Below are positions 16,849 through 40,879 of a stretch of 64,000 nt of DNA, one piece after another. Below the pieces are notes generated by a model that did not search any database, was not told where the DNA came from, and was given only the letters and a program-made list of their open reading frames with translations. The stretch lies in NCBI RefSeq assembly GCF_030770395.1, contig NZ_CP132480.1, positions 3,979,760 to 4,043,759 of the forward strand, read 5' to 3'. Origin of the DNA: Telluria beijingensis (GTDB lineage Bacteria; Pseudomonadota; Gammaproteobacteria; Burkholderiales; Burkholderiaceae_D). The translations under genes and the position numbers were made by a program. How positions within the stretch are numbered: position 1 is the first letter of the stretch; every line of letters begins with the position of its first letter.

Positions 16849-16923
16849 GATACGCCGATACATAAATCGGTATCGGAGCGCAGGAAAATATGATTGGAAC
16901 GTTCTCAATGCATCTCCTACCAT
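16849..16923 (+). promoter_or_regulatory. Arabinose-regulon promoter, copy 1 (TonB receptor): LysR-type site and core promoter
   Basis: GATAC at 16857-16861 and TATC at 16871-16874 form the GATA-N10-TATC dyad, here widened to CCGATAC-N8-GTATCGG. Twenty bases after the start of TATC comes TGATTGGAA (16891-16899), then TCTC (16903-16906, TATC in the other copies) and a -10 box TACCAT (16918-16923). TTGGAA serves as the -35 with an 18-bp spacer. The dyad is centred about 64 bp before the expected start of transcription. An additional GATAC lies at 16849-16853. The same layout precedes 24950 and 39913. Confidence 0.8.
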
Positions 16924-16983
16924 TACCTTCGAGCATGACATAAATACAGCCGGATATCGGCATATAACGACAAAAGGAGACAT

Positions 16984-19707
16984 ATGAAACGGTATGCACC
17001 GGGCTTTGCCACGCCTGAACTTTCCTGCGCTTTCCCCCACGCTTCCCGCAATGCCGCCGGCACGTCTGGCCGGCGCTTCGTCCTGCGCGCCACCGTCGCC
17101 GCCTTGGCCGGCGCCGGCCTGCTGAGCGCCGCCACCGTCGGCGCCCAGGAAGTCGCCCCTGCTGCCACCGCCACGGCGAGCGCGCCATCGAATGCCGAAA
17201 ACAACGCCGCCCGCGCCGGGGACGACCGCAACGCGGCCGTGGTGACCGTTACCGGTACCCGCCAGGCAGCCCAGAGCGCCCAGAACATCAAGCGCAATGC
17301 CGAGCAGGTGCTCGACTCGATCGTGGCCGACGACATCGGCAAGTTCCCGGATAAAAACGTGGCCGAGATCCTGGGCCGGGTGCCGGGCGTGCAGGTGATC
17401 CGCCAGAACGGCGAGGCCGGCAACGTCGTGATCCGCGGCCTGGGCGGCATCAAGACCCTGTACAACGGCCGCGAGATGTTCACCGCGGCGGGCCGCAGCC
17501 TGTTCCTGGCCGACGTGCCGGTGGCCATGCTGCAGCGGGTCGACGTCTACAAGTCGCAGGGCGCCGACATGGTCGAAGGCGGCACCTCGGGTGTGATCGA
17601 CGTGCGCACCAACCGGCCGTTCGACTTCAAGGGCGCGCAGGCGGCCGTCAACGTGCGCGGCGAGCACCGCGACAAGGCCGACCGGATCGACCCCAACGTC
17701 TCGGGCCTGCTGTCGAACCGCTGGAAGAGCGGCATTGGCGAGATCGGCGTGCTGGGCGGCCTGTCGTACCAGCGCGGCCGCTACCACGACGAAACCGCCT
17801 TCGTCGGCGAGCCGCGCACCCTCGACAGCGGCGTGATCGGGGCGCCGTCGATGGGCCGCGTGATGACCGGCGGCGACCGCGAACGCCTGGCCGGCAACCT
17901 GTCGGTCCAGTGGCGCCCGTCGCGCGACCTCGAAGTCTATGCCGAGACCTTCTCGACCCGCATCGAGCACGACTCGCAGAGCATCTTCTTCGTCGGCGAC
18001 CTGCCGATCAACAACCCGGGTTCGACGGTGACGACGATGCCGGGCTCGAACTACCTGGGGTCGATCAGCCACCCGAACGTGAACACCTTCACCCTGAGCT
18101 CGACCCAGGGGCGGCGCGAATCCTCAGAAGGCCACCAGGCGGCGGTCGGCGCGATCTGGTCGGCGATGCCCGGCGTGCGCGTGAGCACCGAACTGGTACG
18201 CACGATCAGCAAGCACGACATGAAGAACCCGATCCTGGACACCGTCATGGACCGTTCCAAGGCGATCCATGCCGAAGTGCGCGACGGCGGCGGCTACCTG
18301 GAATACCCGGGCACCGACATGACCGATCCGGCCAACTGGACCATGTTCGCCCTGTTCGACAACCACAACCGCTCGCGTGGCGCCGCCAACGACTGGCGCG
18401 GCGACGTCGCCTGGACCCCCGAGAACGACGGCTTCTTCAAGGAAGTCAGCGCCGGCGTGCGCTACGCCGAGCGCGACGCCAACTTCGTCCACGAACTCAA
18501 TGGCCACTCGCCGGCTCCCAACCTGTGGTCGCCCAATGCGATCAAGGTCACCGACTTCCCGGGCCTGAACTGCACCAGCCCCAAGACCGGCGGCAACTAC
18601 GGCATGAACCAGTTCTATGCGCCGTGCGTGGACTACCTGCTGGACCACACCGGCGACATCCGCCAGGCGATCCGCGGCGACCGCGATCCGCGGCCGGACA
18701 ATCCGCAGTCGTTCTTCGAGGACGAGGAAAAGACCAGCGCCGTCTACCTCAAGACCAACTTCGGTTTCGACGCCTGGTCGCTGCCGATCGACGGCACCGC
18801 CGGCGTGCGCTACGTGAAGACCAAGCAGCGCATCAGCGGCTACTCGGCGCGCGATGGCGTGCTGTCGCCGATCACGGTGTCGTCCACCACCAACGACGTG
18901 CTCCCGAGCCTGTCGATGCGCGCCCACTTCAGGCAAGACCTGATCGGCCGCCTGTCGGCCAGCAAGGCGATCGAGCGCGCGCCGTTCGCCGACTACAATC
19001 CAGGCCTGGCGCTGTTCCCGTCGACCACCACCACGCTGGCCACCGGCACCGCGGGCAACCCGGACCTCAAGCCGCAAGAGTCGCGCAACGTCGACGTCGC
19101 CCTGGAATGGTATTTCGCGCCGGCCGGCTCGATCACCGGCACGCTGTTCCAGCACGACTACGACAACTACCTGCGCCGCAGCGCGCGGCCCGAAGTGCAC
19201 GATGGCGAAACGTATAACGTCAGCCGTCCGTACAACGCGGTCGAGGGCAAGTTGAAGGGCGCCGAACTGGCCTACCAGCAGTTCTATACCCAGTTGCCGG
19301 GCTGGCTGGGCGGGCTGGGCATGCAGGCCAACGTGACCTGGATGGATGGCGGCCTGGCGGAAGCCGACGGCACCATCAATACCTTTGCCGGCATGTCGAA
19401 GCTGTCGGCCAACCTGGTGGCGCTGTACGAATACGGCAAGTGGTCGGCGCGCGTGGCCTACAGCTGGCGCGACAAGTTCACCGCCGAGTACAACTACCGC
19501 GCGCTGCCGTACAACATCGTGGTCGATCCGCTCAAGACGCTGGACGCCTCGGTCTCGTACAAGCTGACCGACAGCCTGACCCTGACGCTCGACGGCAGCA
19601 ACCTGCTGGACCAGGCCTACCACGACTACCACAGCGTGCCGCAGCTGCCGCGCGACGTGCGGCGCTACGACCGGGTGGTGGGGCTGGCCCTGAGGTGGCG
19701 TAACTGA
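16984..19707 (+). CDS. TonB-dependent receptor, probable arabino-oligosaccharide importer
   Basis: 907-residue outer-membrane receptor that would bring oligosaccharides into the periplasm using TonB energy. A long leader with SGRRFVLRATVAALAGAGLL and the cleavage-like VGAQE is followed by a TonB-box-like VVTVTGTR and a plug domain (DDIGKFPDKNVAEILGRVPG, VVIRGLGGIKTLYNGRE). The barrel runs to the C terminus. The DIGKFPD pattern marks the carbohydrate-type receptor group common in plant-polymer degraders. AGGAG lies 7 nt before the ATG. It heads the arabinose transcription unit and has its own regulon promoter; the substrate is inferred from the genes behind it. Confidence 0.9.
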   Translation: MKRYAPGFATPELSCAFPHASRNAAGTSGRRFVLRATVAALAGAGLLSAATVGAQEVAPAATATASAPSNAENNAARAGDDRNAAVVTVTGTRQAAQSAQNIKRNAEQVLDSIVADDIGKFPDKNVAEILGRVPGVQVIRQNGEAGNVVIRGLGGIKTLYNGREMFTAAGRSLFLADVPVAMLQRVDVYKSQGADMVEGGTSGVIDVRTNRPFDFKGAQAAVNVRGEHRDKADRIDPNVSGLLSNRWKSGIGEIGVLGGLSYQRGRYHDETAFVGEPRTLDSGVIGAPSMGRVMTGGDRERLAGNLSVQWRPSRDLEVYAETFSTRIEHDSQSIFFVGDLPINNPGSTVTTMPGSNYLGSISHPNVNTFTLSSTQGRRESSEGHQAAVGAIWSAMPGVRVSTELVRTISKHDMKNPILDTVMDRSKAIHAEVRDGGGYLEYPGTDMTDPANWTMFALFDNHNRSRGAANDWRGDVAWTPENDGFFKEVSAGVRYAERDANFVHELNGHSPAPNLWSPNAIKVTDFPGLNCTSPKTGGNYGMNQFYAPCVDYLLDHTGDIRQAIRGDRDPRPDNPQSFFEDEEKTSAVYLKTNFGFDAWSLPIDGTAGVRYVKTKQRISGYSARDGVLSPITVSSTTNDVLPSLSMRAHFRQDLIGRLSASKAIERAPFADYNPGLALFPSTTTTLATGTAGNPDLKPQESRNVDVALEWYFAPAGSITGTLFQHDYDNYLRRSARPEVHDGETYNVSRPYNAVEGKLKGAELAYQQFYTQLPGWLGGLGMQANVTWMDGGLAEADGTINTFAGMSKLSANLVALYEYGKWSARVAYSWRDKFTAEYNYRALPYNIVVDPLKTLDASVSYKLTDSLTLTLDGSNLLDQAYHDYHSVPQLPRDVRRYDRVVGLALRWRN

Positions 19708-19750
19708 GCGGCGCAACCGAGTTGACCTCGACATGTAGCTGAAGTGCGAA

Positions 19751-19793
19751 GGGGCGCTGTGCGGATATTCCGGCAGTGCCCCGGCTTGTTTTG
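19751..19793 (+). terminator. Imperfect hairpin with T-run between receptor and symporter
   Basis: GGGGCGCTG (from 19751) pairs with CAGTGCCCC (ending 19782) with internal bulges, and TTGTTTT follows. As the genes on both sides seem to form one unit, this may be a partial terminator that lowers expression of the distal genes relative to the receptor. Confidence 0.42.
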
Positions 19794-19808
19794 ACTGGAT
19801 GGTGAATC

Positions 19809-21161
19809 GTGCAAACCCAAAAACTCTCGACCCTCGAAAAAGTCGGTTTCGGCGCCGGCGACATGGCGCTCAATGTGGTGATCTCGTCGATGATGTTGAT
19901 CATCACCTTCTTCTACACCGATATCTACGGCCTGCGCACCGCCGACCTGGCGGCGCTGTTCGTCGCGGTCAAGGTGGTGGGGGCGGTGGCCGACCTGGTG
20001 ATGGGGCAGGTCAACGACGCGGTGCTGACGCGCTGGGGACGCTATCGGCCATGGCTGCTGCTGCTCGCGGTGCCGTATGGCCTGTCGGTGTTCCTGGTCT
20101 TCAGCACGCCGGACTGGGACTATGACGCCAAGCTGGTCTGGGCCTACTCGACCTATATCCTGATGACGCTGATGACGGCCGGCGTCGGCATCCCGTACAT
20201 CTCGCTGATCAGCGGCCTGACCTCGGACCCGCAGCAGCGCCTGTCGGCCAACGGCTACCGCCTGTTCTTCGCCAAGGTCGGCGCCTTCATGGTGACCATC
20301 GTGGTGCCGATCCTGGCCAACGAATGGGGCGGCGCCAATCCGGCGGCCGGCTACCAGGCCGCGATGGCGCTGATGGCGGCGGTGGGCGTGCTCCTGTTCG
20401 TATTCTGCTTCTTCACCACCACCGAACGCGTGGTGCACAAGGTCGAGAAGCAGCCGCTGATGGAACAGGTGCGGGTCTTGATGAAGAACGACCAGTGGCT
20501 GATCCTGTGCGCCGTGTGCGTGACCGGTACCATCGGCTATGTGATCCGCGGCTCGGTCGCGATCTACTACGCCAAATACTACCTGGGCGGCGATACCGCT
20601 ACCGTCTCGGCCTTCCTGTCGACCGGCGTGGCGGCCGCGATCCTGGCCATGGTGGTGTCGACCTGGACCACCAAGTTCTATTGCAAGGTCAAGCTGTTCC
20701 GCAACTCGCAGATCCTGGTCGCGGTGCTCAGCCTGATGATCTACTTCCTGGTGCAGCCGGGCGATATGGTGATGGCCTTCGTGCTGTACTTCCTGCTGTC
20801 GCTGGTGGTCGACCTGCACGCGCCGGTGTTCTGGTCGGCGATCGCCGAGACCATCGACTACGGCCAGGTCAAGACCGGCAAGCGCGTCTCGGGCTTCGCC
20901 TTCGGTGGCATCTCGGTATGCCAGAAGGCCGGCATGGCGGTCGCCGGCGGCATGGTGGGCGTGCTGCTCGATTATTTCAACTACCAGCCGAACCAGGAGC
21001 AGTCGGCGCTGGCGCTGCAGGGCATCGCGCTGATGCTGTCGGTGATTCCGGGCTTCTTCCACTTCCTGATGGGGCTCCTGATGTTCAAGTACCGGATCAG
21101 CGACGACTACTACAGCACCGTCAAAGAAGACATGCGCGCCCAGGGCTACGCGACCACCTGA
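19809..21161 (+). CDS. GPH-family sugar:cation symporter (MFS), probable arabinoside transporter
   Basis: 450-residue inner-membrane transporter with about 12 hydrophobic segments. It belongs to the glycoside-pentoside-hexuronide:cation group (XynB/YicJ/MelB-like): KVGFGAGDMALN at the N terminus and the loop DAVLTRWGRYRPWLL between segments 2 and 3 are family marks. The start is GTG at 19809 with no strong ribosome site. It sits between the receptor and a cytoplasmic GH43, suggesting that it imports arabino-oligosaccharides which the GH43 then splits. Substrate is inferred from context. Confidence 0.87.
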   Translation: MQTQKLSTLEKVGFGAGDMALNVVISSMMLIITFFYTDIYGLRTADLAALFVAVKVVGAVADLVMGQVNDAVLTRWGRYRPWLLLLAVPYGLSVFLVFSTPDWDYDAKLVWAYSTYILMTLMTAGVGIPYISLISGLTSDPQQRLSANGYRLFFAKVGAFMVTIVVPILANEWGGANPAAGYQAAMALMAAVGVLLFVFCFFTTTERVVHKVEKQPLMEQVRVLMKNDQWLILCAVCVTGTIGYVIRGSVAIYYAKYYLGGDTATVSAFLSTGVAAAILAMVVSTWTTKFYCKVKLFRNSQILVAVLSLMIYFLVQPGDMVMAFVLYFLLSLVVDLHAPVFWSAIAETIDYGQVKTGKRVSGFAFGGISVCQKAGMAVAGGMVGVLLDYFNYQPNQEQSALALQGIALMLSVIPGFFHFLMGLLMFKYRISDDYYSTVKEDMRAQGYATT

Positions 21162-21181
21162 ACCACGAATCGAGAAACGAT

Positions 21182-22132
21182 ATGCAAGAGACGATCCTCA
21201 AACCGCTGATCGAGCAACGCGCCGATCCCTACATCTATAAACATACCGACGGCTACTACTATTTCACCGCCTCGGTCCCGCTGTACGACCGCATCGAGCT
21301 GCGCCGCGCCACCACCATCGCCGGCCTGGCCGACGCGCCGACGGTCGACGCCTGGACCAAGCCCGATACCGGCCCGTACTCCGAACTGGTCTGGGCCCCC
21401 GAGCTGCATTTCAACCAGGGCGCCTGGTACGTGTACTTCGCCGCCGCGCCGAGCCGCGAGATCAAGCACAAGCTATTCCAGCACCGCATGTACGCGATCC
21501 GCAACACCAACGCCAACCCGCTCGAAGGCGAGTGGGAATTCATGGGCCAGGTGGATACCGGTATCGACAGCTTCTGCCTGGACGCCACCACCTTCACCCA
21601 CAAGGGCCAGCTGTACTACCTGTGGGCCCAAAAGGACTACGAGATCGAGGGCAATTCGAACCTGTACATCGCGCCGATGAAGACACCGTGGCAGATCGAG
21701 GGCAAGCCTATCCTGCTCAGCAAGCCGGAACACGACTGGGAAACCATCGGCTTCTGGGTCAACGAGGGCCCGTCGGTGCTGCGCCGCAACGGCAAGATCT
21801 TCATCAGCTACTCGGCCAGCGCCACCGATCACAACTACGCAATGGGCCTGCTGTGGGCCGACGAGGATGCCGACCTGCTGGACCCGGCCGCGTGGACCAA
21901 ATCGGCGCAGCCCGTTTTGCGTACGTGCTACGATCACGGCGTCTATGGCCCGGGACACAACAGCTTCACTTATGCCGAGGACGACGACACCGTCATGCTG
22001 GTCTACCACGCGCGCACCTATACCGAGATCGTCGGCGACCCGCTCTGGAATCCGGACCGCCACACCTTCGTGAAGCCGCTGCGCTGGGACGAACAGGGCA
22101 TGCCGGTATTCGGCCGTCCCTCCACCTATTGA
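21182..22132 (+). CDS. Cytoplasmic glycoside hydrolase family 43, probable exo-alpha-L-arabinofuranosidase
   Basis: 316-residue five-bladed propeller enzyme. Catalytic residues fit GH43: base Asp in RADPYIYKH, pKa-setting Asp in DSFCLDATTF and acid Glu in NEGPSVLRR. There is no signal peptide, so it works in the cytoplasm on imported oligomers. The pattern around RADPYIYKHTDGYYYFTAS resembles exo-1,5-alpha-L-arabinofuranosidases of GH43 subfamily 26. The ATG at 21182, 20 nt after the symporter stop, is taken; the frame is open much further upstream but overlaps the symporter in another frame. Confidence 0.87.
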   Translation: MQETILKPLIEQRADPYIYKHTDGYYYFTASVPLYDRIELRRATTIAGLADAPTVDAWTKPDTGPYSELVWAPELHFNQGAWYVYFAAAPSREIKHKLFQHRMYAIRNTNANPLEGEWEFMGQVDTGIDSFCLDATTFTHKGQLYYLWAQKDYEIEGNSNLYIAPMKTPWQIEGKPILLSKPEHDWETIGFWVNEGPSVLRRNGKIFISYSASATDHNYAMGLLWADEDADLLDPAAWTKSAQPVLRTCYDHGVYGPGHNSFTYAEDDDTVMLVYHARTYTEIVGDPLWNPDRHTFVKPLRWDEQGMPVFGRPSTY

Positions 22133-22157
22133 TCACATCCTCGAGGATTCGAACAAC

Positions 22158-23213
22158 GTGCAAACCGGTATCACGCAAGCGCCGTTCGGCCAGCTGCCCG
22201 ACGGCAGGGCCATCACCCAGTTCACGCTCACCAATGCCCAGGGCATGGTTGCCAGGATCATCGACTATGGCGGCATCGTCACCGAGCTGCATGCGCCCGA
22301 TCGCGACGGTAACTTCGCCGACGTGGTGCTGGGCTTCGAGTCGCTCGAGCCGTACCGCACTGACAGCCCCTATATCGGCGCGCTGATCGGCCGCTACGGC
22401 AACCGCATCAGGCATGGGCGCTTTACCCTCGACGGGCGCGAATATCAGCTGCCGGTCAACAACGGCAACAACCACCTGCACGGCGGGCCTGGCGGCTTCG
22501 ACCGGGTCAAGTGGGAGGCCACGGTCGATGGCGCCAGCCTGCGCCTGCAATACCGCAGCGTCGATGGCGAGATGGGCTATCCCGGCAACCTCGATGCCAC
22601 CGTCACCTATACGCTCACGGACGACAACGAGCTGGTGGTGACTTTCCACGCCGTCACCGACCAGGCGACGCCGGTCAACCTGACCCAGCACAGCTACTTC
22701 AACCTGGCCGGCGACGGTGACATCCTGGGCCATGTGCTGACCATCGAGGCGGACACCTTCGTGGCGATCGATGCCGAATCGATCCCGACCGGCGAACTGA
22801 CGCCGGTGACCGGCACGCCGTTCGACTTCCGCATGCCGCGCCCGATCGGCGAACGCATCGGCCAGCCGGACAAGCAGCTGCGCCATGGCGGCGGCTACGA
22901 CCACAATTTCGCGCTCAACAAGCCGCAGGGCAAGGCGCTGAGCCGCGCGGTGCGGGTGTGCGAACCGGTATCGGGCAGGGTGCTCGAGTTGTGGACCGAA
23001 GAACCCGGCGTGCAGTTCTATAGCGGGAACTTCCTCGACGGTACGCTCGCGGGCAAGGGCCGCAGCTACCAATACCGCAGCGGCTTCTGCATCGAGCCGC
23101 AGCACTATCCCGATTCGCCGAACCAGCCACAATTCCCGGACACGATCCTGCGGCCGGGCCAGGTGTACCAGACCGAGTCGCGCTTCCGCTTCTCGGTGGA
23201 GCCAGGCGCATGA
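22158..23213 (+). CDS. galM: Aldose 1-epimerase (mutarotase)
   Basis: 351-residue enzyme that interconverts alpha and beta anomers of aldoses. The catalytic His is in TQHSYFNLAG, the second His in NNHLHGG, and the catalytic base Glu is in CIEPQHYPDSPNQP near the C terminus. A GTG start at 22158 follows the GH43 by 25 nt, and the stop overlaps the next start (ATGA). Although named after galactose, here it most likely supplies the anomer of L-arabinose used by the sugar dehydrogenase. Confidence 0.92.
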   Translation: MQTGITQAPFGQLPDGRAITQFTLTNAQGMVARIIDYGGIVTELHAPDRDGNFADVVLGFESLEPYRTDSPYIGALIGRYGNRIRHGRFTLDGREYQLPVNNGNNHLHGGPGGFDRVKWEATVDGASLRLQYRSVDGEMGYPGNLDATVTYTLTDDNELVVTFHAVTDQATPVNLTQHSYFNLAGDGDILGHVLTIEADTFVAIDAESIPTGELTPVTGTPFDFRMPRPIGERIGQPDKQLRHGGGYDHNFALNKPQGKALSRAVRVCEPVSGRVLELWTEEPGVQFYSGNFLDGTLAGKGRSYQYRSGFCIEPQHYPDSPNQPQFPDTILRPGQVYQTESRFRFSVEPGA

Positions 23214-24100
23214 TGGAAGTGTTGATCGACGCCGGGCACGAACTCGGCGAATGCGTGCTGTGGTGCGAGCGCAGCGGCCGGCTGCTGTGGACCGACATCC
23301 CGGCCGCGACCCTGTGGTCCCATTCGCCGTCGACCGGCCGCACCGTCAGCTGGACGATGCCCGAGCGCCTGTGCTGCTTCGCGCTCACCGGCAGCGACGA
23401 CCGCCTGCTGCTGGGGCTTGCTTCGGGCCTGGCTTTCTTCACTTTCTCGACCGGCAAGGTCACGCGCATCTGCGACGTCGAGGCCGACAATCCTGCGACG
23501 CGCCTGAACGACGGCCGCTGCGACCGCCAGGGGCGCTTCGTGTTCGGCATGTTCAACCAGGACGACAACCCGAAGCGCGCCGTGGGCGCCTTCTATCGCC
23601 TGCACCTCGACCTGTCGCTGGAGCGCCTGCCGCTGCCGCCGGCGGCGATCGCCAACAGCATCTGCTTCAGTCCCGATGGACGACGCATGTATTTCGCCGA
23701 TTCGCAAGAGAAGGCCATCCTGTACGCCGACTACAACCCGTGCAGCGCCGAGGTCGGGCGGGTCCACACTTTCGTGGCGCTTGACGCCGCGCCGGGAGAG
23801 CCGGATGGCTCGACGGTCGATGCCGAAGGCTATCTCTGGTCCACGCGCTGGGGCGCGGGGCAGGTGATCCGCTTCGCGCCCGATGGCAGCATCGATCGCG
23901 TGCTCGCGCTGGCCGCGCCGCAGCCGAGTTGTCCAGCCTTCGGCGGGCCGGACTTGTCGACCCTGTTCGTCACCAGCGCGCACCTGGGCATGACGGACCA
24001 GGACCGCGCCGCTGCGCCGCTATCGGGCGCCGTGTTCCGGCACGCGCTGGACGTGCGCGGCTTGCCCGAGTCGCGCTTCCTGCACGTCCCGGCGCGTTAA
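23210..24100 (+). CDS. SMP-30/gluconolactonase-family lactonase, probable L-arabinono-lactonase
   Basis: 296-residue six-bladed propeller lactonase. Metal ligands of the SMP-30 family are visible: Glu in GHELGECVLWCER, Asn in ANSICFSPDG and Asp in GEPDGSTVDAEGYLW. It would open L-arabinono-1,4-lactone to L-arabonate, step 2 of the non-phosphorylative arabinose path. The ATG at 23210 overlaps the mutarotase stop by four bases, so the two are translated together. Other sugar lactones are possible substrates. Confidence 0.87.
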   Translation: MMEVLIDAGHELGECVLWCERSGRLLWTDIPAATLWSHSPSTGRTVSWTMPERLCCFALTGSDDRLLLGLASGLAFFTFSTGKVTRICDVEADNPATRLNDGRCDRQGRFVFGMFNQDDNPKRAVGAFYRLHLDLSLERLPLPPAAIANSICFSPDGRRMYFADSQEKAILYADYNPCSAEVGRVHTFVALDAAPGEPDGSTVDAEGYLWSTRWGAGQVIRFAPDGSIDRVLALAAPQPSCPAFGGPDLSTLFVTSAHLGMTDQDRAAAPLSGAVFRHALDVRGLPESRFLHVPAR

Positions 24101-24810: not shown

Positions 24811-24877
24811 GATACGAATATCGATATCAATCTCTTGGAAAAAGTGATTGGAAAGTTATCTGGCCGATCTTTACTAT
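24811..24877 (+). promoter_or_regulatory. Arabinose-regulon promoter, copy 2 (arabonate dehydratase)
   Basis: GATAC (24811-24815), TATC (24825-24828), TGATTGGAA (24845-24853), TATC (24857-24860) and a -10 box TACTAT (24872-24877) occur at the same spacings as in copies 1 and 3. TTGGAA is the -35 with an 18-bp spacer. Confidence 0.82.
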
Positions 24878-24949: not shown

Positions 24950-26692
24950 ATGTCCGAAGCAAAGAAAAAGACGCCGCTGCGCTCCGCGGCATGGTTCGGC
25001 ACGCAGGACAAGAACGGTTTCATGTACCGCAGCTGGATGAAAAACCAGGGCATTCCCGACCATGAATTCCAGGGCAAGCCGATCATCGGCATCTGCAATA
25101 CCTGGTCCGAACTCACCCCCTGCAACGCCCATTTCCGCAAGCTGGCCGAACACGTCAAGCGCGGCATTCTCGAAGCCGGCGGCTTCCCAGTCGAATTCCC
25201 GGTGTTCTCGAACGGCGAATCGAACCTGCGGCCGACCGCCATGCTGACCCGTAACCTGGCCTCGATGGACGTCGAGGAGTCGATCCGCGGTAATCCGATG
25301 GACGCCGTGGTGCTGCTGGTCGGCTGCGACAAGACCACGCCGGCCCTCCTGATGGGCGCGGCCAGCGTCGACCTGCCGACCATCGTCGTCACCGGCGGCC
25401 CGATGCTCAACGGTAAACTGAACGGCAAGGACATCGGTTCCGGCACCGCCGTCTGGCAGCTGCATGAGCAAGCAAAAGCCGGCGCCATCACGATGCACGA
25501 ATTCCTGTCGGCCGAAGCGGGCCACTCGCGTTCGGCCGGCACCTGCAACACGATGGGCACGGCGTCCACCATGGCCTGCATGGCCGAGGCGCTGGGCACC
25601 TCGCTGCCGCACAATGCCGCGATTCCCGCGGTGGATGCGCGCCGCTACGTGCTGGCGCACATGTCGGGCATCCGCATCGTCGAGATGGTGCACGAAGACC
25701 TGCGCCTCTCCAAAATCCTCAAGCGCGAGAACTTCGAGAACGCGATCCGCGTGAATGCGGCGATCGGCGGCTCGACCAATGCCGTGATCCACCTGAAGGC
25801 GATCGCCGGCCGCGTCGGCGTGCCGCTCGAACTGGAAGACTGGACCCGCATCGGCAAGGGTACGCCGACCGTGGTCGACCTGCTGCCGTCGGGCCGCTAT
25901 CTGATGGAAGAATTCTATTATGCCGGCGGCCTGCCGGCGGTCATCCGCCGCCTGGGCGAGGGCGGCCTGATTCCGAACAAGGACGCGCTGACCGTCAACG
26001 GCAAGTCGCTGTGGGACAACTGCGTCGATGCGCCGATCTACAACGACGAGGTGGTGCGCCAGCTCGACAACCCGCTGATCGCCGACGGCGGCATCTGCAT
26101 CCTGCGCGGCAACCTGGCGCCGCGCGGCGCCGTGCTCAAGCCGTCGGCGGCCTCGCCGCACCTGATGAAGCATCGTGGCCGCGCCGTGGTGTTCGAGGAC
26201 TTCGACCACTACAAGCAGCGCATCCTCGATCCGGACCTGGACGTGGACGAGAACTGCGTGCTGCTCATGAAGAATTGCGGCCCGAAAGGGTATCCGGGCA
26301 TGGCCGAGGTGGGCAATATGGGCTTGCCGCCCAAGCTGCTGGCCAAGGGCATCACCGACATGGTGCGCATCTCGGACGCGCGCATGAGCGGCACGGCCTA
26401 CGGCACCGTGGTGCTGCACGTGGCGCCCGAGGCGATGGCCGGCGGCCCGCTGGGCATCGTCCAGGATGGCGACATGATCCAGCTCGATTGCCATTCCGGT
26501 TCGCTCAACGTCGAGCTGACCGATGAACAGATCCAGGCGCGGCTGGCGGATCGGGCCGAGAAGAACAAGCCCGTGCAGCATAGCGGGTACCAGCGCCTGT
26601 ATCTCGACCATGTGATGCAGGCCGACGATGGCTGCGATTTCGATTTTCTCGTCGGTTGCCGCGGGTCGGCAGTGCCAAAACATTCGCATTGA
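24950..26692 (+). CDS. IlvD/EDD-family dehydratase, probable L-arabonate dehydratase
   Basis: 580-residue Fe-S dehydratase that removes water from L-arabonate to give 2-keto-3-deoxy-L-arabonate. Cluster cysteines are in CNTWSELTPCN, GCDKTTPALL and GTCNTMGTAS, as in pentonate dehydratases of this family. The start at 24950 (MSEAKKKTPLRSAAWFG) has AGGAG 7 nt upstream and matches the usual length of about 580; the frame is open to 24899 without support. Amino-acid ilvD genes are not near. The regulon promoter upstream and the following AraD1 and aldehyde dehydrogenase genes support the arabinose role. Confidence 0.9.
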   Translation: MSEAKKKTPLRSAAWFGTQDKNGFMYRSWMKNQGIPDHEFQGKPIIGICNTWSELTPCNAHFRKLAEHVKRGILEAGGFPVEFPVFSNGESNLRPTAMLTRNLASMDVEESIRGNPMDAVVLLVGCDKTTPALLMGAASVDLPTIVVTGGPMLNGKLNGKDIGSGTAVWQLHEQAKAGAITMHEFLSAEAGHSRSAGTCNTMGTASTMACMAEALGTSLPHNAAIPAVDARRYVLAHMSGIRIVEMVHEDLRLSKILKRENFENAIRVNAAIGGSTNAVIHLKAIAGRVGVPLELEDWTRIGKGTPTVVDLLPSGRYLMEEFYYAGGLPAVIRRLGEGGLIPNKDALTVNGKSLWDNCVDAPIYNDEVVRQLDNPLIADGGICILRGNLAPRGAVLKPSAASPHLMKHRGRAVVFEDFDHYKQRILDPDLDVDENCVLLMKNCGPKGYPGMAEVGNMGLPPKLLAKGITDMVRISDARMSGTAYGTVVLHVAPEAMAGGPLGIVQDGDMIQLDCHSGSLNVELTDEQIQARLADRAEKNKPVQHSGYQRLYLDHVMQADDGCDFDFLVGCRGSAVPKHSH

Positions 26693-26698
26693 TGTGAT

Positions 26699-26773
26699 TT
26701 GGACGCGTGGACGGGAGACCCGTCCACCCTACACATTCCCGTGGGGTGGACTGCTTGCCGTCCACGCGTCCAA
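26699..26773. repeat. Palindromic element with 16-bp arms and inner hairpins between dehydratase and araD1
   Basis: TTGGACGCGTGGACGG (26699-26714) is exactly complementary to 26758-26773. Inside, GGACGGG-AGA-CCCGTCC (26709-26725) forms its own hairpin, and CCACCC/GGGTGG (about 26722-26750) a third, so the 75-bp unit can fold into a branched structure. It lies 6 bp after the dehydratase stop and 62 bp before the araD1 start. It looks like a REP-type intergenic element inserted in the operon. Confidence 0.75.
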
Positions 26774-26834
26774 CCAGCACGCGCCTGGCCGCGCTATACG
26801 CCGGCGCCACAATAAAACATAGGAGACCCGCACC

Positions 26835-29395: not shown

Positions 29396-29429
29396 AAAAG
29401 CAGTTACAAGAATAAAGATGGAGACAAGC

Positions 29430-30197
29430 ATGGAACAGATGGGGAGTTATCCGAGCCTGCGCGGCAAGCGGGTATTCGTAACGGGCGGCGGCACCGGCAT
29501 CGGCGAGGCGATCGTGCAGGCGTTCGTGGAGCAGGGCGCGGTGGTCGCTTTCGTCGACATCGCGCAGCAGGCCAGCGAAGCGCTGTGCGCGCGGCTGGCC
29601 GCCGCGGGCCATGTGGCGCCGCAGTTCCGCCACTGCGACATCACCGACATCCCGGCGCTGCAGCGCACGATGGCGGAACTGGCGGCGCAACTGGGCGACT
29701 TCGACGTCCTGGTCAACAACGCGGCGAACGACCAGCGCCATGACATCCAGGACGTCTCGCTCGACTACTGGAACGAGCGCATCGCCATCAACCAGCGTCC
29801 GATGTTCTTCACCAGCCAGGCGGTCCTTCCGGGCATGAAGAAGAAGGGTGGTGGTTCGATCATCAATTTCAGCTCGATGTCCTGGCATGCCAAGGGCGCC
29901 GGCTATCCGGTGTACGCCACCACCAAGGCGGCCGTGATCGGCCTCACGCGCAGCCTGGCGCGCGACCTGGGTCCGTTCGGCGTGCGCGTCAACACGGTGA
30001 CGCCGGGCTGGGTGATGACCCAGCGCCAGGTCGAGCTGTGGGTCGACGAGGCGGCCGAGGTCGAGATCAAGAAGGCCCAGTGCCTGCCGGGCAAGCTGAT
30101 GCCCGACGATATCGCCCGCATGGTGCTGTTCCTCGGCGCCGACGACAGCAAGATGTGCACGGCGCAGGATTTCGTCGTGGATGCTGGCTGGACCTGA
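29430..30197 (+). CDS. SDR-family dehydrogenase, probable L-arabinose 1-dehydrogenase
   Basis: 255-residue short-chain dehydrogenase with TGGGTGIGEAI (cofactor loop), NNAAND and the catalytic pair in YPVYATTK. It ends in DAGWT, typical of classical SDRs. As the only sugar-oxidising enzyme in the locus it is the best candidate for step 1, L-arabinose to L-arabinono-lactone. GGAG lies 6 nt before the ATG at 29430; an alternative ATG at 29418 precedes the ribosome site. It follows the aldehyde dehydrogenase by 34 nt. Confidence 0.82.
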   Translation: MEQMGSYPSLRGKRVFVTGGGTGIGEAIVQAFVEQGAVVAFVDIAQQASEALCARLAAAGHVAPQFRHCDITDIPALQRTMAELAAQLGDFDVLVNNAANDQRHDIQDVSLDYWNERIAINQRPMFFTSQAVLPGMKKKGGGSIINFSSMSWHAKGAGYPVYATTKAAVIGLTRSLARDLGPFGVRVNTVTPGWVMTQRQVELWVDEAAEVEIKKAQCLPGKLMPDDIARMVLFLGADDSKMCTAQDFVVDAGWT

Positions 30198-30256
30198 TCG
30201 TCTGTAGCAAAGACGCGGGACTCGTTAACTTCTGAATTCCCGCCCCCTCGAAACAA

Positions 30257-30335
30257 CGTCATTCCCGCGTAGGCGGGAATCCAAGTGTGCCGGCCTATCG
30301 AGCAAGCTTGGGTACCCGCCTTCGCGGGTACGACG
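30257..30335. repeat. Intergenic inverted repeat, family 'CGTCRTTCCCGC', copy 1
   Basis: Arms 30257-30285 and 30307-30335 (29 nt each, with about five mismatches) surround a 21-nt centre. The arms themselves contain the internal mini-hairpin CCCGC-N4-GCGGG. Relatives occur at 52382-52494 and 54260-54425. It separates the catabolic genes from the glycosidase genes and ends 16 bp before the next start codon. Confidence 0.75.
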
Positions 30336-30350
30336 GATTTGGAGCTTGCC

Positions 30351-32261
30351 ATGACCGCATTTGCCCGCACTGCACTGCTTGTCGTTGGAACCCTTGGCGT
30401 GCACGCACATGCCGCACCTCTCACCAGCCCTGACCGCCACATTGCGGTCGATGTCGCCGTATCGCCATCCGGCGCGTTGACCTATTCCGTCACCCGCGAC
30501 GGCAAACCAGTGATCCTGCCATCAAGCCTCGGCATCGCCGTACAAGGCGCCGACCTGACAACAGGCCTGAAACTGGCCAGCAGCTCCCCCGTCAAGCCAG
30601 TCGAAGACCGCTACGAACTGGCCACCGCCAAGAAACGCCACATCACCTACCGGGCCAACGAGCAGACGCACACCGTGCGCAACGCCCAGGGCCAGGCGAT
30701 GGACGTGACCTTCCGCGTCTCGAACGACGGCGTCGCCTTCCGCTACCGGGTGGCGGGCAAGGGCCTGAAATTCGTCCGCGAGACCACCAGCTTCGCCTTC
30801 GACAAATCGACCAAAGCCTGGCTGCAGCCGATGTCGGTCGCCCAGACCGGCTACGCCAACACCAACCCGTCCTACGAAGAGCACTACCAGCGCGAGATCC
30901 CGGTCGGCACGCCGTCCACGCTGGGCGCCGGCTGGGTCTTCCCGGCGCTGTTCCGCACCGGCGACACCTGGGTCGCGCTGACCGAGGCGAACATGGACGG
31001 CAGCTTCCACGCCTCGCGCTTGCATACCGATTCGCCGGGCGGCGTGTACCGCCTCGACGTCCCGGCCGCGCCCGAGGTGTTCACCGACGGCGCGCTGCTG
31101 GCCGAGTCGCAAGGTGACCTCTTGAGCCCCTGGCGCATCGTCGCGCTGGGCAGCCTGGGCACGCTGGTCGAGTCGACCCTCGGCACCGACCTGGCGGCGC
31201 CCGCGATCGCCTTCGACAAGGCGAAGATCCAGCCCGGCCACGCCGCCTGGAGCTGGGCGCTGCTGAAGGACGACGGCACCTATTTCGACATCCAGAAGCA
31301 GTTCGTCGACTACGCCGCCGACATGGGCTGGGATTACACCCTGGTCGACACCGACTGGGACCGCAAGATCGGCGACGCGCGCATGCGCGAGCTGGTGAAG
31401 CATGGCCAGGCGAAGCAGGTCGGCATCCTGGTCTGGTACAACTCGTCCGGCGCCTGGAACAAGACCGAGTACAGCCCGAAAAGCGCCTTGCTCACGCGTG
31501 AATCGCGCCAGCGCGAGTTCGCGCGCCTGCGCGAGATGGGCGTCAAGGGCATCAAGGTCGACTTCTTCGCCGGCGACGGCAAGTCGATGATTGCCTACTA
31601 CGTCGACATGCTGACGGATGCCGCCCAGGCCGGCCTGCTGGTGAACTTCCATGGCGCCACCTTGCCGCGCGGCTGGTCGCGCACCTTCTCCAACCTGATG
31701 ACGGTGGAAGCGGTGCGCGGCTTCGAGTTCACCACCTTCGAGCAGAAGGACCAGGACGCGATGCCGCCGCACGCCGCCATGCTGCCGTTCAGCCGCAACC
31801 TGTTCGACCCGATGGACTACACGCCGCTGGCCTTCGGCGACATCCCGAACATCAAGCGCGTGACGCGCAACGGCTTCGAGCTCGCCGAGGCGGTGCTGTT
31901 CCTGTCCGGGATCCAGCACTTCGCCGAGCGGCCGGAAGGCATGGCCGGCGCGCCCGACTACGTCAAGAACCTGTTGCGCGAGCTGCCGCGCAGCTGGGAC
32001 GAGGTGCGCTTCATCGACGGCTACCCGGGCCGTTACGCCGTCATCGCCAGGAGGAGCGGCGACAGCTGGTATGTGGCCGGATTCAACGCCGACGGCGCCG
32101 CGCGCACCGTCGACATCGACCTGTCTTTCCTGAAAGGTCGCAGCGGGACGCTGGTCGCCGATGGCGATGGCGAACGCGCATTCAGCCAGGCCCCGATCAA
32201 GGCCGGCAAACATGGCATCAGCATCAAACCACGCGGTGGCTTCGTGGCCGTGTTCAAGTAA
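30351..32261 (+). CDS. Secreted glycoside hydrolase family 97, probable alpha-galactosidase/beta-L-arabinopyranosidase
   Basis: 636-residue GH97 enzyme with a signal peptide (MTAFARTALLVVGTLGVHAHA). An N-terminal beta-sandwich is followed by the barrel with DTDWDRKIGD, GIKVDFFAGDGK (Asp in the place of the nucleophile of retaining members), NFHGATLPRG and TVEAVRGFEF (candidate acid/base Glu). The Asp pattern points to the retaining branch, which holds alpha-galactosidases and beta-L-arabinopyranosidases, rather than inverting alpha-glucosidases of SusB type. GGAG lies 6 nt before the ATG at 30351. It would trim galactose or arabinopyranose ends in the periplasm. Confidence 0.87.
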   Translation: MTAFARTALLVVGTLGVHAHAAPLTSPDRHIAVDVAVSPSGALTYSVTRDGKPVILPSSLGIAVQGADLTTGLKLASSSPVKPVEDRYELATAKKRHITYRANEQTHTVRNAQGQAMDVTFRVSNDGVAFRYRVAGKGLKFVRETTSFAFDKSTKAWLQPMSVAQTGYANTNPSYEEHYQREIPVGTPSTLGAGWVFPALFRTGDTWVALTEANMDGSFHASRLHTDSPGGVYRLDVPAAPEVFTDGALLAESQGDLLSPWRIVALGSLGTLVESTLGTDLAAPAIAFDKAKIQPGHAAWSWALLKDDGTYFDIQKQFVDYAADMGWDYTLVDTDWDRKIGDARMRELVKHGQAKQVGILVWYNSSGAWNKTEYSPKSALLTRESRQREFARLREMGVKGIKVDFFAGDGKSMIAYYVDMLTDAAQAGLLVNFHGATLPRGWSRTFSNLMTVEAVRGFEFTTFEQKDQDAMPPHAAMLPFSRNLFDPMDYTPLAFGDIPNIKRVTRNGFELAEAVLFLSGIQHFAERPEGMAGAPDYVKNLLRELPRSWDEVRFIDGYPGRYAVIARRSGDSWYVAGFNADGAARTVDIDLSFLKGRSGTLVADGDGERAFSQAPIKAGKHGISIKPRGGFVAVFK

Positions 32262-32288
32262 AACATTCAATACAACAAGGAGACGACA

Positions 32289-33830
32289 GTGAAAGTATTC
32301 AAGCCCCTCATCCTCGCCTGCAGCCTGGCTGCCCTGCCGGCCTTCGCCCAGGTGAGCGTGTCGGTCGACACCACCAAGCCGGGCGCGCTCATCAACAAGA
32401 ACGTGTACGGCCAGTTCGCCGAACACCTCGGCACCGGCATCTACGAGGGCATGTGGGTTGGCCCCGATTCGAAGATCCCGAACACCCGCGGCTGGCGCAA
32501 CGACGTCGTGGGCGCGCTGAAGGAACTGAAGGTGCCGCTGGTGCGCTGGCCGGGCGGCTGCTTCGCGGACGAATACCACTGGCGCGACGGCATCGGCGCG
32601 CGCAACAAGCGTCCGGTCAAGGTCAATACCCACTGGGGCGGCGTGGCCGAGGACAACGCGGTCGGCACCCATGAATTCTTCGACCTGGTCGAGCTGCTGG
32701 GCACCGAAGCCTACGTCAACGGCAACCTGGGTTCCGGCACCCCGCAAGAGATGGCCGAGTGGCTCGAGTACATGACCTCGGACACCAAGTCGACCCTGGC
32801 CGAACTGCGCCGCAAGAATGGCCGCAAGGAGCCGTACAAGGTCGCCTATTTCGGCATCGGCAACGAAGCCTGGGGCTGCGGCGGCAATATGAAGCCCGAG
32901 TATTACGCCCACCTGTACAACCACTACGCCACCTTCCTCAAGACGCCACCGGGCGCGCGGCCGAAGATGGTCGCCAGCGGCGGCAACGACAACGACACCA
33001 AGTGGACCGAGGTGCTGAGCAAGGAAGCAGCGCGCGGCACCGACGGCATCAGCTACCACTACTACACCCTGCCGACCGGCGTGTGGGAGAAGAAGGGCGC
33101 CGCTACCGGCTTCCCGGAATCGGAATGGTTCTCGACCATGCAGCAGACCCTGCGCATGGACCAGCAGATAAAGCAGAACATCGCCATCCTCGACAAGAAC
33201 GATCCCGAGAAGAAGATCGGTTTCTATGTCGACGAATGGGGCACCTGGTACGACGTGGAAGAGGGTACCAATCCGGGCTTCCTGTTCCAGCGTAATACCA
33301 TCCGCGACGCGGTCGTGGCGGCGCTCAACTTCAACATCTTCCATGAATACGCCGAGCGCGTGCGCATGACGAATATCGCGCAGATGGTCAACGTGCTGCA
33401 GGCGATGATCATCACCGACAAGGACAAGATGCTGCTGACGCCGACCTACCACGCGTACAAGATGTACATCCCGTTCCAGGACGCGACCAAACTGCCGGTG
33501 GCGGTCGACAACGACGTGGCCTACTCGAGCAATGGCAAGGCGGTGCCGGGCATCAGCGCCACCGCGGCGCGCGCCAAGGACGGCAAGGTCTACGTCGCCC
33601 TGGTCAACACCCACCCGACCCGCGCCAGCGACGTCGCGCTCAACGTGGCCGGCCTGAATGTGGGCAGTGTGTCGGGCCAGGTGCTGACGGCCGAGAAGAT
33701 GGACGCCCATAACACCTTCGCGCAGCCGCAGGCGGTCAAGCCGGCGCCGTTCAGCGCGAAGGCAACCGATGGCAAGCTGACGATCAAGGTCCCGGCCAAG
33801 GGCGTGATGGTCTTCGCCGTCGAGGCGTAA
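32289..33830 (+). CDS. Exported alpha-L-arabinofuranosidase, GH51
   Basis: 513-residue GH51 enzyme that releases terminal arabinofuranose. The acid/base Glu is in GIGNEAWGCGG and the nucleophile in YVDEWGTWYD. The substrate-binding motif VRWPGGCFADEYHWRDGIG is intact. A signal peptide (MKVFKPLILACSLAALPAFA) marks it as periplasmic or secreted, whereas many bacterial GH51s are cytoplasmic. The start is GTG at 32289 after AAGGAG. Its stop codon directly abuts the ATG of the next gene. Confidence 0.92.
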   Translation: MKVFKPLILACSLAALPAFAQVSVSVDTTKPGALINKNVYGQFAEHLGTGIYEGMWVGPDSKIPNTRGWRNDVVGALKELKVPLVRWPGGCFADEYHWRDGIGARNKRPVKVNTHWGGVAEDNAVGTHEFFDLVELLGTEAYVNGNLGSGTPQEMAEWLEYMTSDTKSTLAELRRKNGRKEPYKVAYFGIGNEAWGCGGNMKPEYYAHLYNHYATFLKTPPGARPKMVASGGNDNDTKWTEVLSKEAARGTDGISYHYYTLPTGVWEKKGAATGFPESEWFSTMQQTLRMDQQIKQNIAILDKNDPEKKIGFYVDEWGTWYDVEEGTNPGFLFQRNTIRDAVVAALNFNIFHEYAERVRMTNIAQMVNVLQAMIITDKDKMLLTPTYHAYKMYIPFQDATKLPVAVDNDVAYSSNGKAVPGISATAARAKDGKVYVALVNTHPTRASDVALNVAGLNVGSVSGQVLTAEKMDAHNTFAQPQAVKPAPFSAKATDGKLTIKVPAKGVMVFAVEA

Positions 33831-34859
33831 ATGAAGGCCGCACGCGCAATCGCCCTGGCGATGGCGGTGTCGGCCTCGCTGACCGGTGCGGCCGCTTCTG
33901 CGATGGCCGCGCAGGTCGGCGTGCACGACCCGGTCATGGCGAAACAAGGCGACCGCTATTACCTGTTCAGCACCGGTCCCGGCATTACCTTCTACAGCTC
34001 GACGGACCTCAGGAACTGGAAGCCGGAAGGCCGCGTGTTCAAGGGCGAGCCGACCTGGGCGAAACAGGCCGCGCCGACCTTCAACGACCATATCTGGGCG
34101 CCGGACATCTATCACCACGACGGCAAGTATTACCTGTATTACTCGGTTTCGGGCTTTGGCAAGAATACCTCGGCCATCGGTGTCACCGTCAGCAAATCGC
34201 TCGATCCGCGCTCGCCCGACTACGGGTGGGTCGACCAGGGCATGGTGGTGCAGTCGATCCCGGGCCGCGACCTGTGGAACGCGATCGACTCGCACGTGAT
34301 CGACGACGAACAGGGCACGCCGTGGATGTCGTTCGGCTCGTTCTGGGGCGGGCTGAAACTGGTCAAGCTCGATGCCAGCCGCACGAAACTGGCCGAGCCG
34401 CAGGAGTGGTCCACCATCGCGCGCCGCGAGCGGCCGGCCTTCACGCCGGACGAAGAAGCGGCGCCGGCGCAGATCGAGGCGCCGTTCATCTTCCCGAAAA
34501 ACGGCTGGTACTACCTGTTCGCATCCTGGGACCTGTGCTGCAAGGGCAAGGACAGCACGTATAAAGTGGTCGTGGGCCGGTCGAAGTCGGTCAAGGGCCC
34601 TTATCTCGACCGCAATGGCGTCGACATGGCCAAGGGTGGCGGCTCGATCGTGATCCAGGGCGACAAGGACTGGGTGGGATTGGGCCACAACAGCGCCTAC
34701 ACCTTCGACGGCAAGGACTATATGGTGTTGCATGCCTACGAAAGCGCCGACAAGTACAAGCAAAAGCTCAAGGTGCTCGAGATGAAATGGGACAAGGACG
34801 GCTGGCCGGTGCTGGACCAGAAAGACCTGAACCGCTACCAAAGCGCGCTGCAGGAATGA
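33831..34859 (+). CDS. Secreted GH43 arabinan endo-1,5-alpha-L-arabinanase
   Basis: 342-residue GH43 with a signal peptide ending about ASAMA. The base Asp is in GVHDPVMAK, the second Asp in NAIDSHVI and the acid Glu in QIEAPFIFPK. PWMSFGSFWGGLKL and the length match endo-arabinanases that cut the arabinan backbone. It starts at the first base after the GH51 stop and overlaps the next gene by four bases, so the three are expressed together. Confidence 0.88.
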   Translation: MKAARAIALAMAVSASLTGAAASAMAAQVGVHDPVMAKQGDRYYLFSTGPGITFYSSTDLRNWKPEGRVFKGEPTWAKQAAPTFNDHIWAPDIYHHDGKYYLYYSVSGFGKNTSAIGVTVSKSLDPRSPDYGWVDQGMVVQSIPGRDLWNAIDSHVIDDEQGTPWMSFGSFWGGLKLVKLDASRTKLAEPQEWSTIARRERPAFTPDEEAAPAQIEAPFIFPKNGWYYLFASWDLCCKGKDSTYKVVVGRSKSVKGPYLDRNGVDMAKGGGSIVIQGDKDWVGLGHNSAYTFDGKDYMVLHAYESADKYKQKLKVLEMKWDKDGWPVLDQKDLNRYQSALQE

Positions 34860-37201
34860 AGACGCGTATCGCAGCCTTGAGCTTGCTGGTCGCCGGCGCC
34901 TGGGCGCAGGCCGCCGAAGTCTTCCCATTGTCCGACGTGCGCCTGCAGGCCGGCCCGTTCCTTGATGCCCAGACCACCAACCTGAACTACCTGATGGCGA
35001 TGGAGCCGGACCGCCTGCTGGCGCCATTCCTGCGCGAAGCCGGCCTGCAGCCGCGCCAGCCCAGCTACGGCAACTGGGAGTCGACCGGCCTCGATGGCCA
35101 TATGGGCGGTCACTACCTGTCGGCGCTGGCCTTGATGCATGCCTCGACCGGCGACGCCGAGACCCTGCGCCGCCTGAATTACTTCGTCGCGGAGCTGAAA
35201 CGCGCGCAGCTGGCCAATGGCGACGGCTATATCGGCGGGATTCCCGGCGGACGCCAGGCCTGGCGCGACGTCGCGGCCGGCAAGCTGGAAGCCGACAACT
35301 TCTCGGTCAACGGCAAGTGGGTGCCCTGGTATAACCTGCACAAGGTGTATGCCGGCCTGCGCGATGCCTGGCGCTATGCCGGCAACGAGGATGCGAAAGT
35401 CATGCTGGTCGCCTTGTCCGACTGGGCGCTGGCCCTGACCTCGAAGCTGTCGCCAGAACAGATGCAGACCATGCTGCGCAGCGAGCATGGCGGCATGAAC
35501 GAGATCTTCGTCGACGTGGCCGAGATGACGGGCGACCGGAAATACCTCGACCTGGCGCTGGCGTTCTCGCACCAGGCGATCCTGCAACCGCTGGCCAAAC
35601 GGCAGGACCAGTTGACCGGCCTGCATGCGAATACCCAGATCCCGAAGGTGATCGGCTTCAAGCGCATCCATGATGCGACCGGGCGCCAGGACATGGGCGA
35701 GGCGGCCAAATTCTTCTGGCAGACCGTGGTCGACAAGCGCTCGGTGGCAATCGGCGGCAATAGCGTCAAGGAGCACTTCCACAGCCAGGACGATTTCGAT
35801 CCCATGGTCCATGAAGTCGAAGGCCCGGAGACCTGCAACACCTATAACATGCTGAAGCTGACCCAGATGCTGTTCCAGTCGGAGCAGAAGGGCAGCTATG
35901 GTGACTACTACGAGCGCGCGCTGTACAACCACATCCTGTCGTCGCAGCGGCCGGAGGGCGGTTTCGTCTACTTCACGCCGATGCGGCCGAATCACTACCG
36001 CGTGTATTCGCAGGTGGACCACGGCATGTGGTGCTGCGTGGGCTCGGGCATCGAAAGCCATGCCAAGTACGGCGAATTCATCTACGCGCACGAGAAGGAC
36101 ACGCTGTTCGTCAACCTGTTCGTGGCCTCGACCCTGAACTGGCGTGAAAAGAACGTCCGCATCACCCAGGCCACCAGCTTCCCGGATACCGATACCACGC
36201 GCCTGACGGTCGATGGAGACGGCAGGTTCGCGATGAAGATCCGGTACCCTTTGTGGGTAGCACCGGGGCGCATGGAGGTGAAGGTCAACGGCAAGGCGGT
36301 CAAGCTGGACGCCCAGCCGGGCAACTACGCCACAGTGGAGCGCGCGTGGAAAAAGGGCGACCGTGTCGACGTGCGGCTGCCGATGACTACGCACCTGGAA
36401 CAGATGCCGGGCAAGTCGAACTACTACGCGGTGCTGCATGGGCCGGTGGTGCTGGCGGCAAAGACGCGCATGCTCGGGGACGAGAAGCTCAACTTCCTGG
36501 CCGACGATTCGCGCATGGGGCATATCGCCTCGGGACCGATGTGCCCACTGGAGTCGGCGCCGATGTTCGTCAGCGATTCGACCGATTTCCTCGCCCGGTT
36601 CAAGCCGGTGGCCGGCAAGCCGCTGACGTTCACGGCGCCGGGGCTGGTGCACGGCGCCGATGGGCCGCGGACCGAGTTCATTCCTTTCTTCCGCCTGCAC
36701 GAATCGCGCTACACGATGTACTGGCAGCATGCGACGCCGGGTAGCCTGAAGGAGCTGCAAGCGGCGAACGCGGCGCGCGAGGCGGACCGGATCGCGCTGG
36801 ATGCCCGCACCATCGACCAGGTGGCGCCGGGTGAGCAGCAGCCGGAATCGGATCACTTTTTCAAGGGCGAGGGGAGCGAGGCGGGGATCAATAATGGTCG
36901 CCATTGGCGCCATGCTTCCAAATGGTTCAGCTATGAGCTGAACGATCCCAAGGGCGAGGCCAGGGTATTGCGGCTGGCGTTCGCCAAGGTGGATGCGGGA
37001 CGGCGCTTCGATGTACTCGTCAATGGCAAGGTGCTGGCCGAGGTGACCCTCGACGCGAACGCAAAAGAGGACATCTACACCGTCGACTACCCGATCCCGG
37101 AAGCGATGCGCAAGGCGGCGAAGGGCAAGCTGAGTGTGCGCTTCGAGGCCAGGCCAGGGTCGGTCGCCGGTGGCCTGTACGGCCTGCGGCTGCTGCGCTA
37201 G
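34856..37201 (+). CDS. GH127/GH146-type beta-L-arabinofuranosidase (DUF1680), exported
   Basis: 781-residue (alpha/alpha)6-barrel enzyme with a short signal peptide ([19 protein letters not shown]). The zinc-thiolate centre expected for the family is present: Glu and Cys in PETCNTYNM and the Cys pair in GMWCCVGSG, one of which would be the nucleophile. Further marks are [20 protein letters not shown] and [12 protein letters not shown]. It has a C-terminal sandwich of about 150 residues ending in a carbohydrate-binding-like fold. It starts in the ATGA overlap with the arabinanase and ends the glycosidase block. Confidence 0.88.
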
Positions 37202-37224
37202 TCAAGCCGCCGCTGGATTGGTCG

Positions 37225-39752: not shown

Positions 39753-39759
39753 TTCCAGG

Positions 39760-39789
39760 GCGCTGGACGAGGTGTTTCTCGTCCAGCGC
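39760..39789 (+). terminator. Strong hairpin after the ferritin-like gene
   Basis: A 12-bp perfect stem (39760-39771 with 39778-39789) with a 6-nt loop begins 8 nt after the stop. No long T-run follows, so termination may be partial, but it insulates the arabinose ABC promoter just downstream. Confidence 0.55.
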
Positions 39790-39817
39790 GTATTCCAGTG
39801 GGCGGCTTTATTTTTCC

Positions 39818-39884
39818 GATACAGAAAAACATATCACACGTGCCAAAAAATTGATTGGAAGAGTATCTCACTTTGGCCTAGGAT
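39818..39884 (+). promoter_or_regulatory. Arabinose-regulon promoter, copy 3 (ABC importer)
   Basis: GATAC (39818-39822), TATC (39832-39835), TGATTGGAA (39852-39860), TATC (39864-39867) and a -10 box TAGGAT (39879-39884) keep exactly the spacings of copies 1 and 2. The start of translation is 28 nt after the -10 box. Confidence 0.82.
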
Positions 39885-40872: not shown

Positions 40873-40879
40873 GGCGACC

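Follow-up and report, generated by a model that had tools for sequence, protein, structure and literature searches.

The window analysed here, a stretch of 64,000 nucleotides from Telluria beijingensis, contains three putative transcription units on the + strand, each preceded by a copy of one spaced sequence motif, and a gene for a LysR-type regulator, gbpR, at the end of the third. The extents of the units were inferred from gene order and spacing. Unit 1 (16984..24100) encodes a TonB-dependent receptor, an MFS_2 transporter, a GH43 protein, an aldose epimerase and an SGL-type lactonase. Unit 2 (24950..37201) begins with the genes for an IlvD/Edd (arabonate-type) dehydratase, AraD1/GguC, an aldehyde dehydrogenase and an SDR protein, and also holds the alpha-galactosidase-like, ArfA-like, AbnA-like and GH127 glycosidase genes. 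Unit 3 (39913..46400) comprises the genes for a YtfQ/R/T-like sugar ATP-binding cassette (ABC) transporter, a second permease and a GH43 protein, followed by gbpR (45459..46400, + strand). GbpR carries the HTH_1 and LysR_substrate domains of LysR-type regulators, both above the Pfam cut-off, and is 313-314 amino acids long; several Massilia records hold proteins 94-96% identical to it. The dehydratase reached 832.1 bits with the L-arabinonate dehydratase model, below the cut-off of 882, and passed the broader subfamily models NF004784 and NF009560. Together, the genes fit an oxidative breakdown of L-arabinose combined with arabinan scavenging.

Three spaced sites in the window

An earlier note on this DNA had proposed that the three units share one promoter design with identical spacing. 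In agreement with this, the motif GATAC-N9-TATC-N16-TGATTGGAA-N3-TMTC is present on the + strand at 16857, 24811 and 39818, without a mismatch in any of the copies. The claimed intervals hold, with 14, 20 and 12 nt between the starts of successive elements, N11 to the -10 box, and 18 bp between TTGGAA and the -10 box. No further match was found on either strand of the window when up to three mismatches were allowed, giving three in total, and 100 dinucleotide shuffles of the window yielded none.

Site 1 consists of a recognition dyad, GATAC-N8-GTATC (ATA-N10-TAT, 16857..16874), an activation half-site, TGATTGGAA-N3-TCTC (16891..16906), which overlaps the -35 region (16894-16899), and the -10 box TACCAT (16918..16923), where a TANNAT position is conserved in relatives. 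The same elements follow one another on the + strand in site 2 (dyad 24811..24828, half-site 24845..24860 over the -35 at 24848-24853, -10 box TACTAT at 24872..24877) and in site 3 (dyad 39818..39835, half-site 39852..39867 over the -35 at 39855-39860, -10 box TAGGAT at 39879..39884). The description of the -10 as TASSAT-like thus suits two of the three boxes and fails for the remaining one. The statement that the surrounding bases are not conserved is nearly correct. Pairwise identity amounts to 20-33% in the 200-base flanks and to 60-68% within positions 1-50, but all three copies also agree at six further positions. An A-tract at positions 29-32, which the earlier note did not mention and which is strongly conserved among relatives, accounts for four of these six.

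With the transcription start assumed from the -10 box, the dyad is centred at about -64 and the weaker activation half-site lies over the -35, which is, judged by sequence, the usual anatomy of a LysR-type activator, as had been suggested. The T-N11-A core of LysR operators is not present, as the conserved T3 and A16 are separated by 12 bases; the dyad, ATA-N10-TAT, exceeds the classical T-N11-A box by one base. A search for sigma-70 consensus promoters between 39700 and 46700 found none, where 1.2 were expected from shuffles, which is weak evidence.

Occurrence in the genome and in the family

To delimit the set of sites, the genome of 6,017,275 bases on one contig was searched. With up to three mismatches, the spaced motif matched four times on the forward strand and not at all on the reverse strand, and a control with the pattern written backwards gave no match. 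A placement at random genomic positions, named beforehand as an outcome that would speak against the proposal, was therefore not observed. The dyad alone is not specific enough to mark the regulon: with one mismatch it matched 49 times forward and 49 times in reverse, where the reversed control gave 9 and 12 matches, near-palindromes being counted twice.

A sequence-only model was then trained on 40 sites of other genomes, none of them from this genome. Among the 150 of 439 first-look candidates that were scored, it returned six matches at E<=10, of which four are full sites, one is partial and one, at E 7.46, is at chance level. The full sites (E 3.7e-13 to 2.4e-8) include the three of the window; the fourth lies at 3880190 (G000:C1), before a gene for a GluP/FucP-like sugar permease. 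The partial site at 4324914 (E 1.9e-4) precedes a GH43 gene. The genome-wide search thus gave a small, sugar-related set, in which each of the five sites precedes a gene that serves the uptake or breakdown of sugars or encodes a glycosidase.

Next, 116 genomes of the family were searched separately for the motif and for the protein, a GbpR orthologue being defined by at least 65% identity. The orthologue was found in 30 genomes and the motif in 31, with both in 29, only GbpR in one, only the motif in two and neither in 84. The motif thus occurs in 29 of 30 genomes with GbpR versus two of 86 without (Fisher p 7.5e-24, ancestry ignored). The two motif-only genomes, G033 and G069, score poorly with the matrix (at best -13.7, and 4.3 elsewhere), and we judged their matches to be due to chance. 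Two others of the 86, G065 and G107, encode homologues of 41-42% identity and lack the motif; the stretches around these genes score at background. Of 158 sites scoring at least 20, 84 precede a transporter gene, 16 a dehydratase gene and 7 a receptor gene, where each number includes one site of the window and some genomes are counted twice. In several genera the site sits between gbpR and a divergent target gene.

An extra dyad, GATATCCAAACTGATATG, was found on the + strand at 45433..45450, just before the gbpR start codon, with no activation half-site recognised. It is one of two exact genome matches to a strict dyad pattern, which was chosen after GATATCCAAACTGATATG had been seen. Compared with 1600 random windows, the 121-base region around the gbpR start exceeds the 99th percentile in 47 of 80 relatives, although many of these are closely related and do not count as independent cases. 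This dyad is possibly an autoregulatory site, which would probably have a damping effect. LysR-type regulators are often autoregulated or divergent from their target, and here the agreement is one of position only: gbpR is divergent in many relatives, with the site in between, and in the window it closes unit 3 and is preceded by a dyad of its own. In Janthinobacterium (L024-L034, L042, L046, L055), several GATATC-type dyads directly precede gbpR, an arrangement more elaborate than the single dyad of the window.

Distant loci and the 16-base spacer

Nine GbpR loci from other families, with 49-57% identity, were examined, and in all nine the top site lies beside gbpR and scores above each of 40 shuffles. 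Five further loci of 52-56% identity also score above their own shuffles, three of them (L189, L190, L193) with 24.8-48.3. L191-L193, all from one family of the order, differ in that the site stands 3' of gbpR and in the same direction, rather than in a divergent region, and has a weaker dyad.

The recognition dyad and the activation half-site were also scored separately, with the spacer between them left free from 0 to 40. A spacer of 16 gave the highest score in 71 of the 80 close loci, in 12 of the 14 distant beta loci and in 7 of the 12 plasmid-borne loci. Training sites of the matrix lie in 13 of the close loci and in none of the distant beta or plasmid sets; in the close loci without a training site, spacer 16 was best in 58 of 67. 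Three loci that did not choose it (L173, L181, L194) nevertheless have a spacer-16 site beside gbpR.

For a view from the transporter side, ChvE was searched in 398 genomes of the phylum, giving 43 matches in 42 genomes, and the loci of the best 30 of the 43 were used. A GbpR-like gene of 30-38% identity lies within the ~1.5 kb fetched on each side in 14 of them and is absent in 15, and L206 was set aside. In the free-spacer scoring, 13 of the 14 loci with a GbpR-like neighbour favoured spacer 16, and none of the 15 without one did. Homology to LysR genes that lie beside chvE and its transporter genes and share the operator was found, with L235 and L263 as exceptions. In the genome of L206 (G028), two sites 137 bases apart precede chvE (L153/L206); the LysR gene next to it reaches only 25-27% identity, and the true gbpR lies ~8-9 kb from this locus.

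Azospirillum brasilense has three sites, one each at the promoters of chvE (score 16.3), ytfQ (15.5) and gbpR/lactonase (10.1), and Azospirillum sp. B510 has two (17.5 and 6.0). Five more plasmid loci came from alphaproteobacteria, with 26-35% identity, and of these Sinorhizobium meliloti and R. leguminosarum have a clear spacer-16 site. In S. meliloti 1021 the best site, with spacer 16, is located between gbpR and a divergent gene of the ChvE family, whose product passes the ChvE equivalog model with 554.1 against 460 bits.

Several observations weigh against one common architecture bound by GbpR. The co-occurrence counts take no account of shared ancestry, and one genome (G094) has GbpR without the motif and only a degenerate site before a receptor gene. 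Another spacer was chosen in 9 of the 80 close, 2 of the 14 distant beta and 5 of the 12 plasmid loci, and the site of Halomonas sp. PA16-9 (L202, 4977, - strand) fits best with spacer 17. L191 and L192 score weakly (-2.2 and -1.9), yet still higher than all 40 of their shuffles. Sites are likewise weak at the Methylobacterium (L203, 8.6) and Qingshengfaniella (L264, 2.0) loci and at the chvE loci L230 (-1.9) and L235 (-27.3), and no clear site was seen at the Pleomorphomonas (L261, gene annotated gbpR) and Tistrella (L263) loci or at the homologue loci of Azospirillum thermophilum (L199), Niveispirillum (L204) and Phaeobacter (L205).

Taking these points into account, we consider it likely that the ATA-N10-TAT dyad, the 16-base spacer and the ATT-N7-TAT half-site over the -35 form one operator-promoter architecture of the whole GbpR lineage. 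Its spacing would be older than the divergence of alpha- and betaproteobacteria and have been kept ever since, and it would mark GbpR-controlled aldose regulons, including rhizobial chvE promoters, directly from sequence, in the present case extended to genes for arabinan scavenging and to a feedback dyad before gbpR. A constant spacing is to be expected for a single regulator and is notable mainly for the reach of its conservation.

A predicted GbpR regulon and its known relatives

Some other genes lie close to the three units. An extracytoplasmic function (ECF) sigma gene and an RskA-type anti-sigma gene, with a ferritin-like neighbour, are located between units 2 and 3 (37225-39575, - strand). 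A hybrid histidine kinase gene directly follows gbpR (46585-48795), and genes for GalT, GalK and a GH2 glycosidase are found near the arabinose cluster (58295-63384), without a copy of the site.

The likeness of the three sites could in principle stem from a recent duplication of one promoter, in which case it would say little about regulation. Three near-identical spaced motifs within 23 kb invite this explanation; the flank identity of only 20-33% contradicts it, and in other genomes the orthologous genes of each promoter type are preceded by a site of their own, so that we give a duplication almost no credence. The sites might also be promoters of an alternative sigma factor, for example of the ECF sigma/RskA pair at 37225-38.5 kb, with the shared part being the -35 and -10 elements. 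GGAA near the -35 recalls ECF promoters, and the gene pair sits between units 2 and 3. However, the dyad is one of the best conserved elements although it lies far upstream of a promoter core, the -10 is a sigma-70-like TANNAT, and the sigma and anti-sigma genes (E<=1e-20) were found in only 2 of the 80 stretches fetched around gbpR. An ECF promoter was therefore rejected as highly improbable.

More serious is the possibility that another LysR-type regulator of the genome binds the sites and GbpR is a bystander, as the genome holds 37 matches to the GbpR protein, itself included, and a second LysR gene lies in the window (3685-4641). Yet the next best LysR match is only 27% identical to GbpR, and the loci of the nine next best matches (~1.5 kb on each side) contain no site, with scores of -4.6 to -39.4, for which reason we rejected these genes as partners. 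For the remaining 27 LysR matches, the evidence is the genome-wide model search, which returned only the five described sites and the chance-level one among the candidates scored. The motif moreover tracks GbpR orthologues (29 of 30 genomes) and adjoins gbpR in distant lineages. We regard a different LysR-type partner as very unlikely.

With high confidence, we read the three sequences as the operators and promoters of one regulon under the GbpR-like protein encoded at 45459-46400. The earlier note had named this protein as the obvious partner, and the co-occurrence, the sites beside gbpR, the recurrence with a free spacer and the small sugar-related set all point to it. A GbpR dimer would anchor on the recognition dyad centred ~64 bp before the start, and a second dimer of the same tetramer would contact the weaker ATT-N7-TAT half-site that overlaps the -35, while the A-tract between dyad and half-site probably aids bending of the DNA. 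The fixed spacing would follow from one protein tetramer lying on one face of the helix. An inducer, probably L-arabinose or an early catabolite, may change the grip of the tetramer, so that RNA polymerase would be helped at promoters without a good consensus -35. As gbpR ends the transporter unit, GbpR would raise its own level on induction, and local repression via the dyad before gbpR may limit this rise.

The predicted regulon is new, clearly delimited and of a known kind, and it is well supported by the sequence comparisons. It would tie arabinan uptake, oxidative L-arabinose breakdown and transport together in Massilia-like bacteria. The switch itself would be of an ordinary kind, whose exact layout is found again in bacteria that are only very distantly related. 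It offers a concrete and searchable predicted operator for a family of regulators known from chvE in Agrobacterium and relatives. Binding sites are predicted at the promoters of chvE and araA as well; reporter strains for one of these, in S. meliloti, have been published (PMC4254191). In the parts of the literature consulted, neither the motif in Massilia nor a GbpR operator was described; predicted sites may be contained in a network paper (PMC11387232), of which a part was covered.

According to the S. meliloti study, an arabinose-inducible araA promoter on the megaplasmid that carries gbpR occupies the place in which the spacer-16 site was found, and gbpR is drawn there as its potential or confirmed regulator; expression rose 10-fold with arabinose in minimal medium, and >100-fold in earlier work cited (PMC4254191). 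The divergent S. meliloti gene described above would be araA, an assignment that rests on its place beside gbpR in a record without gene annotation.

GbpR of Agrobacterium and Azospirillum, the regulator of chvE/sbpA, is likewise of the LysR type. Its homologues adjoin chvE and the associated ABC-transporter genes in Azospirillum, Rhizobium and Tistrella records, and such loci carry the same spaced site in A. brasilense, Azospirillum sp. B510 and R. leguminosarum, with no clear site in Tistrella. The window GbpR is ~42% identical to the Azospirillum proteins and 33-35% identical to the rhizobial ones. The window departs from the known systems in its YtfQRT-like partner transporter, in the position of gbpR within the operon, and in units that also encode a TonB receptor and enzymes for the degradation of arabinan.

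Halomonas AraR, the predicted regulator of araMFGHCY, also belongs to the LysR family and has a predicted DNA motif at oxidative L-arabinose genes (PMC5507952). This motif may be related to that of the window. The Halomonas homologue locus that prefers spacer 17 encodes a protein 42% identical to GbpR, which may be the published AraR.

The best NCBIfam match of the window GbpR is PcaQ of S. meliloti, also a LysR-type regulator, although with 191.3 bits against a cut-off of 303.8 (TIGR02424) GbpR falls outside that family. The PcaQ binding site is given as ATAaccgggggatTAT, an ATA-N10-TAT dyad centred at 65.5 bp (PMC5002191), which has the same length as the dyads of the window and nearly the same place. 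Unlike the window sites, that of PcaQ has a different half-site and serves a different pathway.

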